64,000 bases of DNA from a virus: the IMG/VR virus record IMGVR_UViG_3300032087_005679, positions 1 through 64,000 of that record; one strand, written 5' to 3'. The number at the start of each line of letters is the position of its first letter. The first letter of the stretch is position 1. The notes beneath the pieces are model-generated. The model was not told the origin of the DNA and ran no database searches. It was given only the letters and a program-made list of their open reading frames with translations. This document shows positions 128-62,933 of this stretch, piece by piece. Both the position numbers and the translations under genes were made by a program.

Positions 128-715
128 TTACCACTTCCTGCAAGACCAGTAACGAGCCTTTGTCTTAGGTCCTGGATTATCGCAGTTGTGGCGAGCACGG
201 AACGATTTACGGCGTTCAGGGTTAGACTTCTTAATCCTCATATTGGGATCACCGAAGTTTACTTTCTTAACATTGCCAGTCTTGGGATCTTTAACATAAA
301 CTTTAAATTTCTTTACGTCCCCACGCATTGGCTTGTTGAGTGTGACTTTGCGTCCTTGATATTCAGCCTCTACAAGTGTGTCGTCCCAAAACTCTATGTC
401 TTCAGCCAGAGTTCCATCATCATAAGATGCGTCCTCAATATGACAATATTCCACACTTTCTGTTTTTGTTCCAGAAGTCAAGAGGTAATCACGGCAAGCA
501 TTCATATGAGATGCTGCTACAGCGAGTTTGTTAGTCCACCAAGTTGGGAGTGCTTGGTCTTCTGGGACCATTTGAAGAGCCTGGAGAATTTCAGCAGCAT
601 CTTCACCGATGGTTAATAGGTCGCTCCTAGAAGATGGGACATCTGTGTGCCCTGCTTCTTTTAGGATTTCTTCCCTAATAATTTCTAATAGTTGAGACTT
701 TGCAATCTTCATCAT
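128..715 (-). CDS. Small phage protein: N-terminal helix plus basic Cys-containing C-terminus
   Basis: 195 residues in three parts. Residues 1-21 (MMKIAKSQLLEIIREEILKE) form a charged amphipathic helix, also seen at the start of other small proteins here. Residues about 35-80 are helical with a WW pair and a helix ending in CRDYLLT. The C-terminal 60 residues are basic, with SFRARHNCDNPGPKTKARYW followed by SCRKW. I recall similar C-terminal modules in marine T4-like phages but cannot name a characterised function. The helix ends in ILKE, which fits the [L/I]-x-E rule for cleavage by the T4 prohead protease, so packaging into the head is possible (inference). The start is supported by GGGAG just upstream, and it overlaps the preceding gene by ATGA. 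Confidence 0.8.
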   Translation of the reverse strand: MMKIAKSQLLEIIREEILKEAGHTDVPSSRSDLLTIGEDAAEILQALQMVPEDQALPTWWTNKLAVAASHMNACRDYLLTSGTKTESVEYCHIEDASYDDGTLAEDIEFWDDTLVEAEYQGRKVTLNKPMRGDVKKFKVYVKDPKTGNVKKVNFGDPNMRIKKSNPERRKSFRARHNCDNPGPKTKARYWSCRKW

Positions 716-999
716 AATTCTCCCTTTAGTAGCCCTTCAATATCAATTCCCAAGTGCTTTTGAAGAGCCGCATTCATTTGTGTTTTTACTTCTTGGAATT
801 CCTCTGGTGTTCGACCAGTTTCAGCAGGCCAGTCATCCATATCAAGGACCCAGTCTTGCCCTGCGTCATCCAAAGCATTTTCAATTTTCATCTTAAAATC
901 AGCGTGTTTTCCAAAATCTGCATCTCTATCGACAGATGCTTCTACATCGTAGTCAAATTCTTTTAGATACTTCCGCCATTCTGTTAGTAGTTTTTTCAT
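712..999 (-). CDS. Small acidic protein with possible capsid-targeting N-terminus
   Basis: 95 residues. It starts MKKLLTEWRKYLKEF, an amphipathic helix ending in YLKE, which matches the [L/I]-x-E cleavage rule known for T4 gp21 substrates. The rest is acidic (DYDVEASVDRDADFGKH, then DDAGQDWVLDMDDW) and probably helical, with no enzymatic motif. It overlaps both neighbours by ATGA junctions, so the three small genes form one translationally coupled block. The function is unknown. A small internal head protein is one reading, but it rests only on the N-terminal pattern. Confidence 0.75.
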   Translation of the reverse strand: MKKLLTEWRKYLKEFDYDVEASVDRDADFGKHADFKMKIENALDDAGQDWVLDMDDWPAETGRTPEEFQEVKTQMNAALQKHLGIDIEGLLKGEL

Positions 1000-1511
1000 C
1001 CTTTTTTACCTGCCTTTGATTTTTTGCCGTAGTTGCCTCGTTCTCCGCACGCTGATGGTGTGGGTCGGCACTTCGGATATTTTGCTCGTTTTTCGCCGCT
1101 TTCACGACCACAGGCACTACATTTCTTTCTGCCTGTCTTTTTGTCTTTGCGGCAAGTATTGCAATCTACCCAGCCGCTTTTGCCACCCTTTTCGCCCTTA
1201 CGTCCAAACCAATCCCTAAGACTGGTTTCTGAAGAAGGCTTTTTTGTGAGCTTTCGCTTTTCGTCTAGCTTTGAGAGTTCTGCCTCTACTAGTTCTCTAA
1301 TGCGATCACGGTCAATGTTTTCTTTTTTGCTGTTTCCCCAGTTTTTGGCACCGACTTTGCGGCACTTAACTAGGGCACCAGAAGCATAGGCTGAGGGCCA
1401 TACTTTGTAGCGTGATTTTACCTTGTGATAGCAAGCGTCCTTCTTGCCTTCTTTTTCAGCTAGTAGTTCTTCTTCTACTATCTTTCGTAATTCGTCTAAT
1501 GATATCTTCAC
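996..1511 (-). CDS. Basic Cys-rich phage protein with two zinc-ribbon-like modules
   Basis: 171 residues if translation starts at the GTG placed 6 nt after a perfect AGGAGG; an ATG nine codons upstream has no such site. Residues 1-17 (KISLDELRKIVEEEL) form the amphipathic helix shared with neighbouring small genes, and a second copy (DRDRIRELVEAELSKLDE) lies near residue 67. Between them is a KVKSRYKVWPSAYASGALVK module, a domain I recall from phage and giant-virus proteins (possibly DUF5872-like). The C-terminal 60 residues are Lys/Gly-rich with CNTC, CSAC and further Cys residues, suggesting a metal-binding ribbon. Nucleic-acid or head-associated binding is plausible because of the charge. 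The function is unknown. Confidence 0.8.
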   Translation of the reverse strand: MKISLDELRKIVEEELLAEKEGKKDACYHKVKSRYKVWPSAYASGALVKCRKVGAKNWGNSKKENIDRDRIRELVEAELSKLDEKRKLTKKPSSETSLRDWFGRKGEKGGKSGWVDCNTCRKDKKTGRKKCSACGRESGEKRAKYPKCRPTPSACGERGNYGKKSKAGKKG

Positions 1512-1521
1512 TGAGTGCCTC

Positions 1522-2469
1522 CTACATGGACAAAGCAATCCTCAATAAATAGGCATCTGAATCAATAAAAGGAGCCTTTTCTTTACGTTGCTGAAACACC
1601 TCTCTGGGCATCTCTCCAATGTCTTTATAACCTGAAGTGTCCATCATGCGGACCTCTATGTCGTAAGCCAACAATGCTTTTACAAGTCGCATCGCTTTTT
1701 TCTGAGCATCAGCATCCAACCCAAGCAGCACTGGAGTATCGTTCTTCACAATCTTCCTGAAGAGTTTACTGTCTTCCCGAAGTGTTGAGCCGAGCAGTGG
1801 AATGCTGTTCTCACCAGCAACAATAGCATCAAACACACCTTCTACAAGTGTGACCTCTCGCTCCCAGTCAACCAGCAGTTCGTTAAAGATGATGTCTTTG
1901 TTCCCTGGTCCGTTGAGATAAGGAGGCCAGATATTAGGGTCATATGTGCGGGAAGTAAAAAAGTTACAATAACCTTCTTCGTCAAATGATGGGAGAATAA
2001 TTCTATTTTTATATTCCCCACTTCCACAGTAGCCAATCTTCCAATACAGAATATCTTTTTCTGTTACCCCTCGTTTGTAAAGGTAGTTGAAGACCAGTCG
2101 TGATGACGGTGGGTGAGATCGACCAGTAAGTGTTTTGAACTCATTTGGAAGGTCAATTCGTTGACTAGTTTCTTCTTCCTTGGCGAATAGGTTGTCTAGG
2201 TCGCCTAACTCAATGTCGGCATCAAAATCTTTCCATCTATTGATGTGAGAAAAGTCGCCCCAACGCCTGACAAGGCGTCGTAAATTTTTGGTGCGGAAGT
2301 CACACGCCCAGCACTTCGCCACGTTCTTGTCAAAATTGACTGATAGTTTGGGCTTATGATGAGAACAGCAGCGGGAAGGGTAGAGATATTCCTTCCCCTG
2401 CTTGTACGGACGACCTAAGACCTCGTCAAGGATCTTCTTCTTTTTAGCTGAAGCTGGATCGTTGAACAA
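1522..2469 (-). CDS. DNA primase, CHC2 zinc finger and TOPRIM domain (T4 gp61 role)
   Basis: 315 residues, close in size to T4 gp61. A zinc-binding region near the N-terminus shows C34/C35, H37/H38, C53 and C56. The TOPRIM fold shows E210 in LVEGVFDAIVAGE, then D252 and D254 in LGLDADAQKK. Primases of this type synthesise the short RNA primers for lagging-strand DNA synthesis and act with a replicative helicase, which is not in this window. The gene is packed between a HAD phosphatase (adjacent stop and start) and the small-protein block. Identification is firm at family level; calling it the replisome primase rather than another TOPRIM nucleotidyltransferase follows from the paired CHC2 finger. 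Confidence 0.9.
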   Translation of the reverse strand: MFNDPASAKKKKILDEVLGRPYKQGKEYLYPSRCCSHHKPKLSVNFDKNVAKCWACDFRTKNLRRLVRRWGDFSHINRWKDFDADIELGDLDNLFAKEEETSQRIDLPNEFKTLTGRSHPPSSRLVFNYLYKRGVTEKDILYWKIGYCGSGEYKNRIILPSFDEEGYCNFFTSRTYDPNIWPPYLNGPGNKDIIFNELLVDWEREVTLVEGVFDAIVAGENSIPLLGSTLREDSKLFRKIVKNDTPVLLGLDADAQKKAMRLVKALLAYDIEVRMMDTSGYKDIGEMPREVFQQRKEKAPFIDSDAYLLRIALSM

Positions 2470-3075
2470 TTAGTACCCTAGTTCTTGGAGTTGCCTAATC
2501 GTATTATCCACATCATCTGGATTATGTTTAATAGCGATGCCACCACCCGCTCGGAACTCGTTGACGTATTTGTCTCGGTCGTCAATCAGAAGTCCTTGTT
2601 TTCCGTTCCAAACTCCGTAGGGTTCTTTACTATCAGAAAGATTGACTTTTTCTACTGGAAGTCCTAGTTCTCGCTCAACCCAGATTCGCTTACCAATCTT
2701 TGAACCTTCTTCCATGGGTGCCGACAAAATCTCAAGTCCTGGAATGTCCTTGATGTAGTCCCAAAGCTTTTTGCCGCCACGTTCCCAGCCGAGGTTCGCC
2801 CACAAATCGACATCGTTCTCAACGAGACGATACATGAAGTCTCTCGTGCGGTAGTTTCTTTTTAGGCTGCCCTCCATATCGGAGCGAGCAATATGCCAGC
2901 GGTTGATCTCTACGTCCCAGCCGCCAATCTCTTTGGCTGCTGAGCGAGCAAGTTTGTAATCAGGATGATCTGGTTGATTTTTTAGTTCCTGAAAACGTTT
3001 GTTCATGTACTTTAGAACGCCACCCTCAAAGTTGACGAGGACGCCATCCATATCGCTAAAGACTTGGTACTTCAT
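2470..3075 (-). CDS. HAD-superfamily phosphatase, 5'(3')-deoxyribonucleotidase-like
   Basis: 201 residues when started at the ATG preceded by GGGAGG at 7 nt; an upstream in-frame ATG would add 26 residues without support. HAD motif I is visible as FSDMDGVLVNF with D8 and D10, and the last motif as LLIDDRDKYVNEF. The cap region between them is helical. The layout (motif I at the extreme N-terminus, short cap, about 200 residues) resembles the 5'(3')-deoxyribonucleotidase group, which dephosphorylates nucleoside monophosphates. T4-like phages often carry such genes, and a role in nucleotide-pool turnover is likely, but the substrate cannot be read from sequence. A promoter-like sequence lies directly upstream. 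Confidence 0.8.
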   Translation of the reverse strand: MKYQVFSDMDGVLVNFEGGVLKYMNKRFQELKNQPDHPDYKLARSAAKEIGGWDVEINRWHIARSDMEGSLKRNYRTRDFMYRLVENDVDLWANLGWERGGKKLWDYIKDIPGLEILSAPMEEGSKIGKRIWVERELGLPVEKVNLSDSKEPYGVWNGKQGLLIDDRDKYVNEFRAGGGIAIKHNPDDVDNTIRQLQELGY

Positions 3076-3094
3076 AGGAGCACCTCCCTTCAGC

Positions 3095-3125
3095 ATTATA
3101 ATAGCATATGTTTTTAATAGGTCAA
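3095..3125 (-). promoter_or_regulatory. Candidate sigma70-like promoter upstream of the HAD phosphatase
   Basis: On the minus strand TTGACC (bases 3125-3120) is followed after 19 nt by a perfect TATAAT (3100-3095), ending 20 nt before the start codon. The spacing is 2 nt longer than ideal; TATTAT with a 16-nt spacer is an alternative -10. It occupies the only gap in this part of the gene array. Confidence 0.5.
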
Positions 3126-3130
3126 GAAGT

Positions 3131-3484
3131 TTATTTATCTTCTTGTGCGTCAAGATAGGCTGCTATAGCCATCTGTTGCTTTTTCTTTTTTGATTTGCCC
3201 TTGAACTGTGGGGCTTTTGATTTACGGAAATCGTCAACATATTCGCCGGCTGTTGCATCTTTGCCAAGCTTTTCTGTCATTTCATCATCACGGTTTGCTG
3301 CATCTCTCTCAGCGTCACGCAGTTTCATCTTGACTTGGTTCAAGATTGATGTAACTTCGGAACGTTCTAAGTTTGACAATGTAGCAAATATTGAAGAAAC
3401 CTTCTCTTCTTCCTCGTCGGATCCAAGAGCCTCGTTGATCTGCTCCTTGATTAGGTTTCTAATAATTTCTTTTGTTAGTTTCAT
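3131..3484 (-). CDS. Small charged protein with amphipathic N-terminal helix
   Basis: 117 residues. It begins MKLTKEIIRNLIKEQINEAL, another member of the helix family that opens several small proteins in this window. The middle (about 45-70) is a highly charged probable coiled coil (MKLRDAERDAANRDDEMTEK), followed by a lysine-rich stretch KGKSKKKKQQ. There is no enzymatic motif and no clear Shine-Dalgarno sequence; the leader reads CTATTTATTTT before the ATG. A DNA-binding or internal head protein fits the charge pattern, but this is inference. Confidence 0.75.
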   Translation of the reverse strand: MKLTKEIIRNLIKEQINEALGSDEEEEKVSSIFATLSNLERSEVTSILNQVKMKLRDAERDAANRDDEMTEKLGKDATAGEYVDDFRKSKAPQFKGKSKKKKQQMAIAAYLDAQEDK

Positions 3485-62162: not shown

Positions 62163-62933
62163 TTAAATATCTAATTCCATATCAACACCAGTTTCATCAG
62201 AGTCTGTAGTGTCTTCTTTTTCCTCTTCATATTCTGGTGTAGAAACATCTGGAAGTGTGTTTGATAGTTCATCTTCAAACTTATCAAAATAGAGAAGCAA
62301 GTTTGTGATAAGGTAATCATAGAAAATGTCTTGATCTGTTTCATCTGCTAGCATGTCATAAGCATCAACAATTTGCTTTTCAACTTTCTTAAAAGTAATT
62401 GCAGCAAAGTTACGACCTGTTTCATTCTGATCGTCTAGTTTTACAAAATCATCTTCTTTACCGTCATTATCGATATCAATAAATTCACCTTCTACAGATT
62501 GTTCTTCTTTCCCGTCATCTTGTGGGTCTAGGTCAATTGATATTTTCTCTAGGAGAGTGTCTTTGTCGATTTCATACTCAATGCTTTCTAGCTGATCCTC
62601 AGCTTGACCTTGCGCTTCAATTGGACGAAGAGCATTCTCAACAGCATGAACAATGTGGTTTCTAAACGAATCTCTTTGCTCTTTATCGCTAGTAAGCATT
62701 TTGTAATCGTTTTCAATAGTTGGAATAACTTTTTCCAGCAAATCAGCTAGAACATTAATACCAGTGCTACGACTTGCTTCCTCTGTTCCTGTTTCGGCTT
62801 CAATTAGTTTGCGAACTACTTTTCTTATCTTTTCTTCAGCAAGTCTTTGCTGTTCAAGCTTCATGACAATCCTTTTACGGACATGTTCTCTAATAAGTTC
62901 TTCAGCTATTAGTTGGTTTCGGTCAATAGTCAT
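62163..62933 (-). CDS. Acidic helical protein with dockerin-like Ca loop, possible head/scaffold protein
   Basis: 256 residues when started at the ATG preceded by GGAGATAA; a longer frame runs into the preceding gene. Residues 1-50 are two amphipathic helices (DRNQLIAEELIREHVRKR, then RLAEEKIRKVVRKLIEAE), similar to the short helix of other small proteins here. Residues about 115-165 are strongly acidic; EFIDIDNDGKEDDF fits the D-x-D-x-D-G calcium-loop pattern. The C-terminal third is helical with QIVDAYDMLADETDQDIFYD. A T4-style internal scaffold or core protein is one possibility, because such proteins are acidic and helical. The function is not established. Confidence 0.75.
   Translation of the reverse strand: MTIDRNQLIAEELIREHVRKRIVMKLEQQRLAEEKIRKVVRKLIEAETGTEEASRSTGINVLADLLEKVIPTIENDYKMLTSDKEQRDSFRNHIVHAVENALRPIEAQGQAEDQLESIEYEIDKDTLLEKISIDLDPQDDGKEEQSVEGEFIDIDNDGKEDDFVKLDDQNETGRNFAAITFKKVEKQIVDAYDMLADETDQDIFYDYLITNLLLYFDKFEDELSNTLPDVSTPEYEEEKEDTTDSDETGVDMELDI

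Follow-up and report, generated by a model that had tools for sequence, protein, structure and literature searches.

Candidate capsid targeting sequences of two exchangeable types on small proteins of marine T4-like phages

The tagged genes of the window

Close to one end of a viral DNA of 64,000 nucleotides (the window analysed here, positions 1 to 64,000 of the 74,195-base record IMGVR_UViG_3300032087_005679, a fragment from a myovirus, with genes for a baseplate and a weak late-sigma-like match) four small genes on the minus strand encode proteins that start with a short charged helix. An earlier note on this DNA had read these helices as a possible capsid-targeting signal. The analysis supports that reading: the tags are spaced like the T4 capsid targeting sequence (CTS) and lose their conservation beyond the cleavage site, they occur on no fewer than 76 unrelated cargos and together with an S77 protease, and a natural tag swap keeps the site. 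The shared helix very probably is a CTS ending in a site for a gp21-type (S77) prohead protease, within a system that would be expanded and modular. Two types of this N-terminal tag are distinguished, type A (MKITKSQLRxIIKEE-like) and type B (MKKLLTEWRKYLKE-like). All four N-termini pointed out earlier are present, with scores of 31, 36, 29 and 27 bits (range 27-36) against profiles from another genome, the related 190,528-base record G006, and they belong to genuine minus-strand genes, with stop and start codons overlapping along 128-715/712-999/996-1511.

128-715, minus strand: gene, 195 aa, tagged N-terminus
656-715, minus strand: its type A tag, (M)MKIAKSQLLEIIRE/EILKE, 30.9 bits; two possible gp21-type sites, IRE and LKE
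712-999, minus strand: gene, 95 aa, tagged N-terminus
958-999, minus strand: its type B tag, MKKLLTEWRKYLKE, followed by FDYD...; 35.6 bits
996-1511, minus strand: gene, 171 aa, GTG start at 1511, tagged N-terminus
1455-1511, minus strand: its type A tag, MKISLDELRKIVEEELLAE; site LAE, with VEE at the standard position; 28.9 bits
3131-3484, minus strand: gene, 117 aa, tagged N-terminus
3443-3484, minus strand: its type A tag, MKLTKEIIRNLIKE, followed by QINEA...; 27.4 bits

Pfam and PHROGs scans of the four proteins gave little besides phrog_7595 (HVA1-like) and phrog_727. The gene order in G006 is a tagged 3131-like gene, a nucleotidase, a primase, a tagged 996-like gene and a tagged HVA1 gene, whereupon a long series of tagged genes follows. 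Since the same order continues into this series in G006 and the window record ends inside the gene group, the window breaks off partway through a tag island.

Two tag types with a common spacing

Both profiles were built from G006 only (seed sets A, MKITKSQLRQLIKEE..., and B, MKKLLTEWRKYLKE...), and eight other records were scanned. At 12 bits or more, a score that internal protein windows of the nine genomes reach 29 times in 380,959, tagged genes number 25 in G006, 16 in G003, 15 in G009, 16 in G016, 11 in G020, six in G018, two each in G012 and G001, and four in the window record. Beyond the window the motif is found on 10-25 proteins in most full-length relatives, G018 with six and G012 with two standing apart. 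The strict A/B profile is not a universal detector: it finds no match in Flavobacterium phage immuto or in C48C1, which have shorter or T4-like tags. Immuto encodes an S77 protease and has MKKSQLR(E/Q)II(R/K)-type N-termini.

Types A and B are alike in having hydrophobic residues at positions 8 and 11, [LI] at 12 and E at 14, that is hxxh[LI]xE, which is the spacing of the T4 IPIII targeting sequence plus gp21 site. For IPIII it was reported that residues 4 and 7 drive targeting and residues 8 and 10 processing (PMC9026906). Among the 72 tagged proteins of the non-seed genomes 55 have both [LI]12 and E14, as compared to a mean of 2.2 and a maximum of 8 in 1000 rounds of shuffled N-termini, and [LI]xE occurs somewhere within residues 5-28 in 67. 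When genes are chosen on residues 2-8 only, which keeps the cleavage site out of the selection, [LI]12/E14 is present in 46 of 58 versus 5.1% of all genes. Per-column conservation among unrelated tagged proteins amounts to 2-3 bits and drops below 1 bit after residues 14-16, the pattern expected for a removable peptide. The earlier observation that some of the helices end in [L/I]-x-E is confirmed, far beyond chance, with two corrections: there are two tag types, and the main site lies at residues 12-14, further sites coming thereafter. The tags share every defining feature of a T4 CTS that can be tested in sequence.

Prohead protease and capsid genes

All relatives of at least 168 kb encode an S77 protease (PF03420) and a Gp23 capsid protein (PF07068). 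Of 20 contig fragments selected solely for DNA that encodes tag A, 16 contain the S77 protease, 17 a T4 portal and none an S78 protease, versus an S77 protease in 0 of 17 control contigs of 40-402 kb picked by a ThyX motif (p 4e-7). The capsid proteins of seven relatives carry four invariant [LI]xE sites within their N-terminal 60-65 residues, the last one being LL[RK]E with a conserved GFAxVAFPIVRRVF shortly after, and these sites would be maturation sites of the same protease. Tagged genes adjoin the protease gene or stand a few genes away in G012, G016, G018 and G020, and a conserved gene between the protease and the capsid gene encodes a protein whose N-terminus is a type-A-like helix (in G006, MKKSELKNIIKE).

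Cargo diversity and exchange of tags

The cargo parts of 97 tagged proteins fall into 76 unrelated clusters. Family scans identified a P-loop kinase of the zeta-toxin kind (E 7e-9) and, with less strong matches, a nucleotidyltransferase behind tag B in a window relative (G016:190163) and DUF3293 in three tagged proteins; the labels LigT phosphoesterase, SAM lyase, acetyltransferase (GNAT) and HAD derive from weak matches only, and several cargos are ADP-ribosyltransferase-like as judged by eye only (YHYT, LFHYS and VYRG starts). Exchange is indicated by two loci, L084 and L086, which hold the same gene under different tags, MRITKSQLRQIIKEEVSSVLNE|EEEYYHI and MKKLLTEWRQFLNE|EEEYYHI, one of type A and the other of type B. 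The cargo is identical at 109 of 111 positions (98%), the upstream neighbour is the same gene in both, and the junction lies at the same LNE site, indicating that A and B tags are interchangeable on one protein with the LNE site kept. Two further cargo clusters mix tags A and B.

Could the shared N-terminus simply reflect recent paralogy, with a small gene family duplicated in tandem and a start that has no targeting role? Tagged genes do often stand in tandem, and in four of five genomes codons at identical tag residues match somewhat more often than expected (0.49-0.58 vs 0.38-0.44). However, this is a small excess, and G009 does not show it (0.37 vs 0.39). The 76 unrelated cargo clusters and the exchange of two different tags on one cargo speak against paralogy alone, and duplication leaves the association with the S77 protease unexplained, so that we consider it very improbable as the sole explanation.

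Modular architecture and the HVA1 domain

Behind the tags the window proteins are composed of small modules:

401-655, minus strand: first cargo module of gene 128-715 (residues 21-105), ending GTLAE; from blastp against open reading frames (ORFs) of collected loci and alignment
131-367, minus strand: HVA1-like basic module of gene 128-715 (residues 117-195, AEYQGRKV...), directly after LVE; phrog_7595, E 1.3e-14
1332-1454, minus strand: KKDACYHKVKSRY...AKNWG module (DACYHKVK module) of gene 996-1511, present in 366 phage records (T4-like cyanophages with few exceptions); belongs to gene cluster T4-GC119
1260-1319, minus strand: internal tag-like helix of gene 996-1511 between its two modules, NIDRDRIRELVEAELSKLDE, assigned from sequence
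999-1223, minus strand: SLRDWF... Cys-rich basic module of gene 996-1511, also in cyanophage T4-GC119 (compared by eye)
3134-3262, minus strand: C-terminal module of gene 3131-3484, EYVDDFRKSKAPQFKGKSKKKKQQMAIAAYL; EYVDDFRKSKAPQFKGKS..KKQQMAIAAYL; common to otherwise different proteins of related contigs

The layout of the 128-715 protein is tag, first module, GTLAE/DIEFWDDTLVE and HVA1-like domain. In other phages (L303, L361, L281) its first module exists on its own as a small tagged protein, and its HVA1-like module is a stand-alone protein in phages without an S77 protease. The 996-1511 protein looks, from its internal helix, as if two tagged proteins had been fused, and similar internal helices occur in L048 and L265. 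T4-GC119, annotated in S-E7 as a structural protein, contains both modules, and Roseobacter phage CRP-7 has what by eye appear to be stand-alone versions of them. The C-terminal module of the 3131-3484 protein, which also closes otherwise unrelated proteins in other contigs, is possibly a second sorting or binding module.

The HVA1 domain allows comparison of phages with and without the S77 protease. Among 14 phages lacking it, 13 encode an HVA1 protein whose start coincides with that of the domain or lies a few residues away (MAKYQG... and MATYKG... in the closest relatives), whereas all four S77-bearing isolates have an N-terminal extension before the domain. In T4-like sequences, leaving out two free proteins and one partial repeat in immuto, nine of ten junctions carry [LI]xE (LVE, IEE, LEE, LDE or LTE before AEYQG or GEYRG) and one VVE; HTVC008M has LEE|AEFQG and Melnitz MME|SEYQG. 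The fourteenth phage without an S77 protease is Roseobacter phage CRP-6 (L218), in which HVA1 is fused to the N-terminus of what by eye appears to be an HK97-type (S78) prohead protease, hinting that HVA1 may be a head-interior module beyond T4-like phages too.

These junctions bear on the question whether the tags are cut at all. A helix that docks onto scaffold or core, brings proteins into the head and is retained there uncut would be compatible with 17 of the 72 tags, in which the standard position holds an imperfect [LI]xE (V/M at 12 or Q/D at 14), and with the separability of targeting and processing residues in T4 (PMC9026906). The site is, however, among the most fixed features of the tags, conservation stops there, LNE is kept in the tag swap, and [LI]xE precedes HVA1 domains where the free versions begin, which makes a retained docking helix unlikely.

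Virion proteins of T4-like cyanophages

Further evidence comes from published virion mass spectrometry, by which tagged enzymes are found in particles of other marine T4-like phages. In the report on cyanophage S-CREM2 (PMC10665884, Table 3) the virion proteins include a SAM hydrolase, an APH-like kinase, a cytidylyltransferase and the small ORF13 and ORF136, which start with MKDFDSFLEE, MKRFDAFLTE, MKNFSSFLTE, MKDLHSFLTE and MQTFSMFFSE, respectively. In the part of this source that was covered, 4 of the 41 ORFs detected by mass spectrometry carry a strict T4-spaced CTS, as against none of the 173 not detected (p 0.0012), so that all strict CTS-bearing proteins found are virion proteins; a fifth strict CTS, MKRFDAFLTE of ORF14, was missed by the gene caller. 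The strict pattern was written after the detected N-termini had been seen, and the effect size depends on the pattern, as a looser one gave 4/44 vs 2/106 (p 0.06; p 0.011 with tail proteins left out) on these data. ORF12 (L415:7704-10313), which encodes a Cas9-like nuclease reported to occur in virions, shows a CTS-like FASFMAE some 25 residues into the protein.

The cytidylyltransferase was also found in virions of S-SZBM1 (PMC9146016) and, as orthologue T4-GC190, of S-SM1 (PMC3037559). The S-SZBM1 protein starts MRFRQFIIE|A, and orthologues start MKSFSQFLTE in P-SSM2 and MKSFFQFLSE in S-SM2. In C48C1 (L205:15373) the in-frame sequence upstream of the annotated start, VIKNFSQYLLEEEREVYFTFGRMNPP, resembles a CTS-bearing N-terminus, and the annotated start is probably too late. 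The available parts of the cyanophage virion papers propose no targeting signal for packaged enzymes, and the phrase 'Capsid target' is absent from the S-CREM2 paper (PMC10665884).

The same data bear on the idea that the helix directs proteins elsewhere (membrane, replication compartment or tail) or serves as a generic solubility or translation leader. The raised helical hydrophobic moment (0.36 vs 0.24) and the position of some tagged genes near tail or baseplate genes would fit such a role, but a fixed protease-site motif, the location of tags beside protease and capsid genes, and the same motif on S-CREM2 enzymes detected in virions speak against it and leave it the least probable of the explanations considered.

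The protein near 62.9 kb

A protein near 62.9 kb, which the earlier note had counted as a fifth member, belongs to a different, widely conserved family and was rejected as a tag carrier on its profile scores of -18.1 (A) and -23.0 (B) bits.

62163-62933, minus strand: conserved family protein, ATG at 62933; not a tag carrier; 80 homologous loci

The 80 relatives kept are 37-86% identical. The protein has basic N-terminal helices (net charge +2 over the first 60 residues), the remainder is strongly acidic (-42), and several [LI]xE sites are present; a prohead core or scaffold-like protein is possible. It lies beside a KxDG/nucleotidyltransferase gene (record positions 62944-66309, L001:1444-4809) encoding a 1121-aa protein with a ligase-like KxDG motif (EEKVDGQNL, found by eye) and an NMNAT-like C-terminal domain. 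The start of this 1121-aa protein is untagged; C48C1 and Melnitz proteins that resemble it by eye have CTS-like N-termini (DFKNFITE and FSKYITE).

Comparison with known systems

The closest counterpart is the CTS system of T4 (IPI, IPII, IPIII, Alt; gp21). Common to both are a short N-terminal peptide with aromatic or hydrophobic residues three apart followed by [LI]xE, non-homologous cargos, those of T4 including an ADP-ribosyltransferase, and the gp21-type protease and gp23-type capsid protein encoded in the window relatives. However, T4 has about four CTS proteins with a 10-residue tag, whereas here the core is shifted by four residues, two consensus types are exchangeable, most relatives have 10-25 cargos per genome, and multi-module fusions contain internal sites. 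The cyanophages S-CREM2, S-SZBM1, S-SCSM1 and S-SM1 are similar in having SAM hydrolase, kinase and NMNAT/cytidylyltransferase in purified virions. Those with the sequence checked begin with a T4-spaced CTS (MKNFSSFLTE, MRFRQFIIE, MKDFDSFLEE), but these tags are short and T4-like, type A not being seen among them. In phage P1 the N-terminal signal of DarB suffices to bring a foreign protein into the head and antirestriction cargo is delivered at infection, although the Dar proteins have no common consensus (PMC9024508); no Dar-like annotation turned up in the family scans of tagged proteins, which included no search aimed at Dar homology. The giant phages phiKZ and SPN3US have propeptides cleaved by the prohead protease on many ejected head proteins, and identical N-termini on some otherwise diverged ones (PMC5694885), but several of these propeptides exceed 100 residues and no short tag is common to many cargos. 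Three things are new here: how large the system is, that its two codes can be exchanged, and that the cargo is modular and contains internal sites. No description of the type A code (MKITKSQLRxIIKEE), nor any account of the tag or of capsid targeting in marine phages, was found in the open-access literature, most subscription journals lying outside the search.

A proposed head-loading code and its meaning

How could such a system work? An N-terminal address of 14-20 residues would recruit the cargo into the assembling prohead core, and the gp21-type (S77) prohead protease would cut behind hxxh[LI]xE, so that the mature cargo stays with the packaged DNA and is probably ejected into the host at infection. 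In this phage group as many as about 25 unrelated proteins per genome carry one of the two interchangeable tags, the cargo being single or fused small basic modules parted by further [LI]xE sites. The tag, its modularity, its site, its link to the protease and the exchange of tags are shown at the level of sequence. Packaging of the tagged proteins in the window lineage is an inference with strong support, and cleavage, core binding and injection are inferred to take the course outlined.

Apart from the imperfect sites of 17 tags, several observations weigh against capsid targeting as the role of the tags. The 74-kb window record contains no S77 protease gene, yet this fits a fragment of a genome of about 190 kb. 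Only two tagged genes are present in G012 and six in G018. The habitat of the ThyX control contigs may differ from that of the tagged ones. No T4-type late promoter (TATAAATA) was found upstream of tagged genes, and late expression can thus not be argued in this way. Data on virion presence concern the T4-spaced form only (S-CREM2, S-SZBM1); no virion proteome is known for the window lineage or for any type-A-tagged protein, and type A is tied to packaging via swaps and spacing.

On balance we favour, with some reserve, the broader view that in many marine T4-like phages two interchangeable N-terminal codes serve as a general head-loading code for up to about 25 proteins and that tags move between cargos by recombination. 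The loaded set would include predicted nucleotidyltransferases, SAM-lyase-like and ADP-ribosyltransferase-like enzymes. If this is true, a motif of 14 residues would allow packaged, probably injected proteins to be predicted among the hypothetical proteins of abundant ocean viruses, and the virion enzymes of cyanophages (NMNAT, kinase, SAM hydrolase, Cas9-like nuclease) would have one shared explanation. Such tags might in addition serve to load proteins of choice into phage heads. Which proteins are delivered with the phage DNA would become a question testable from genomes, and the packaged repertoire of uncultured phages would be readable from sequence alone.

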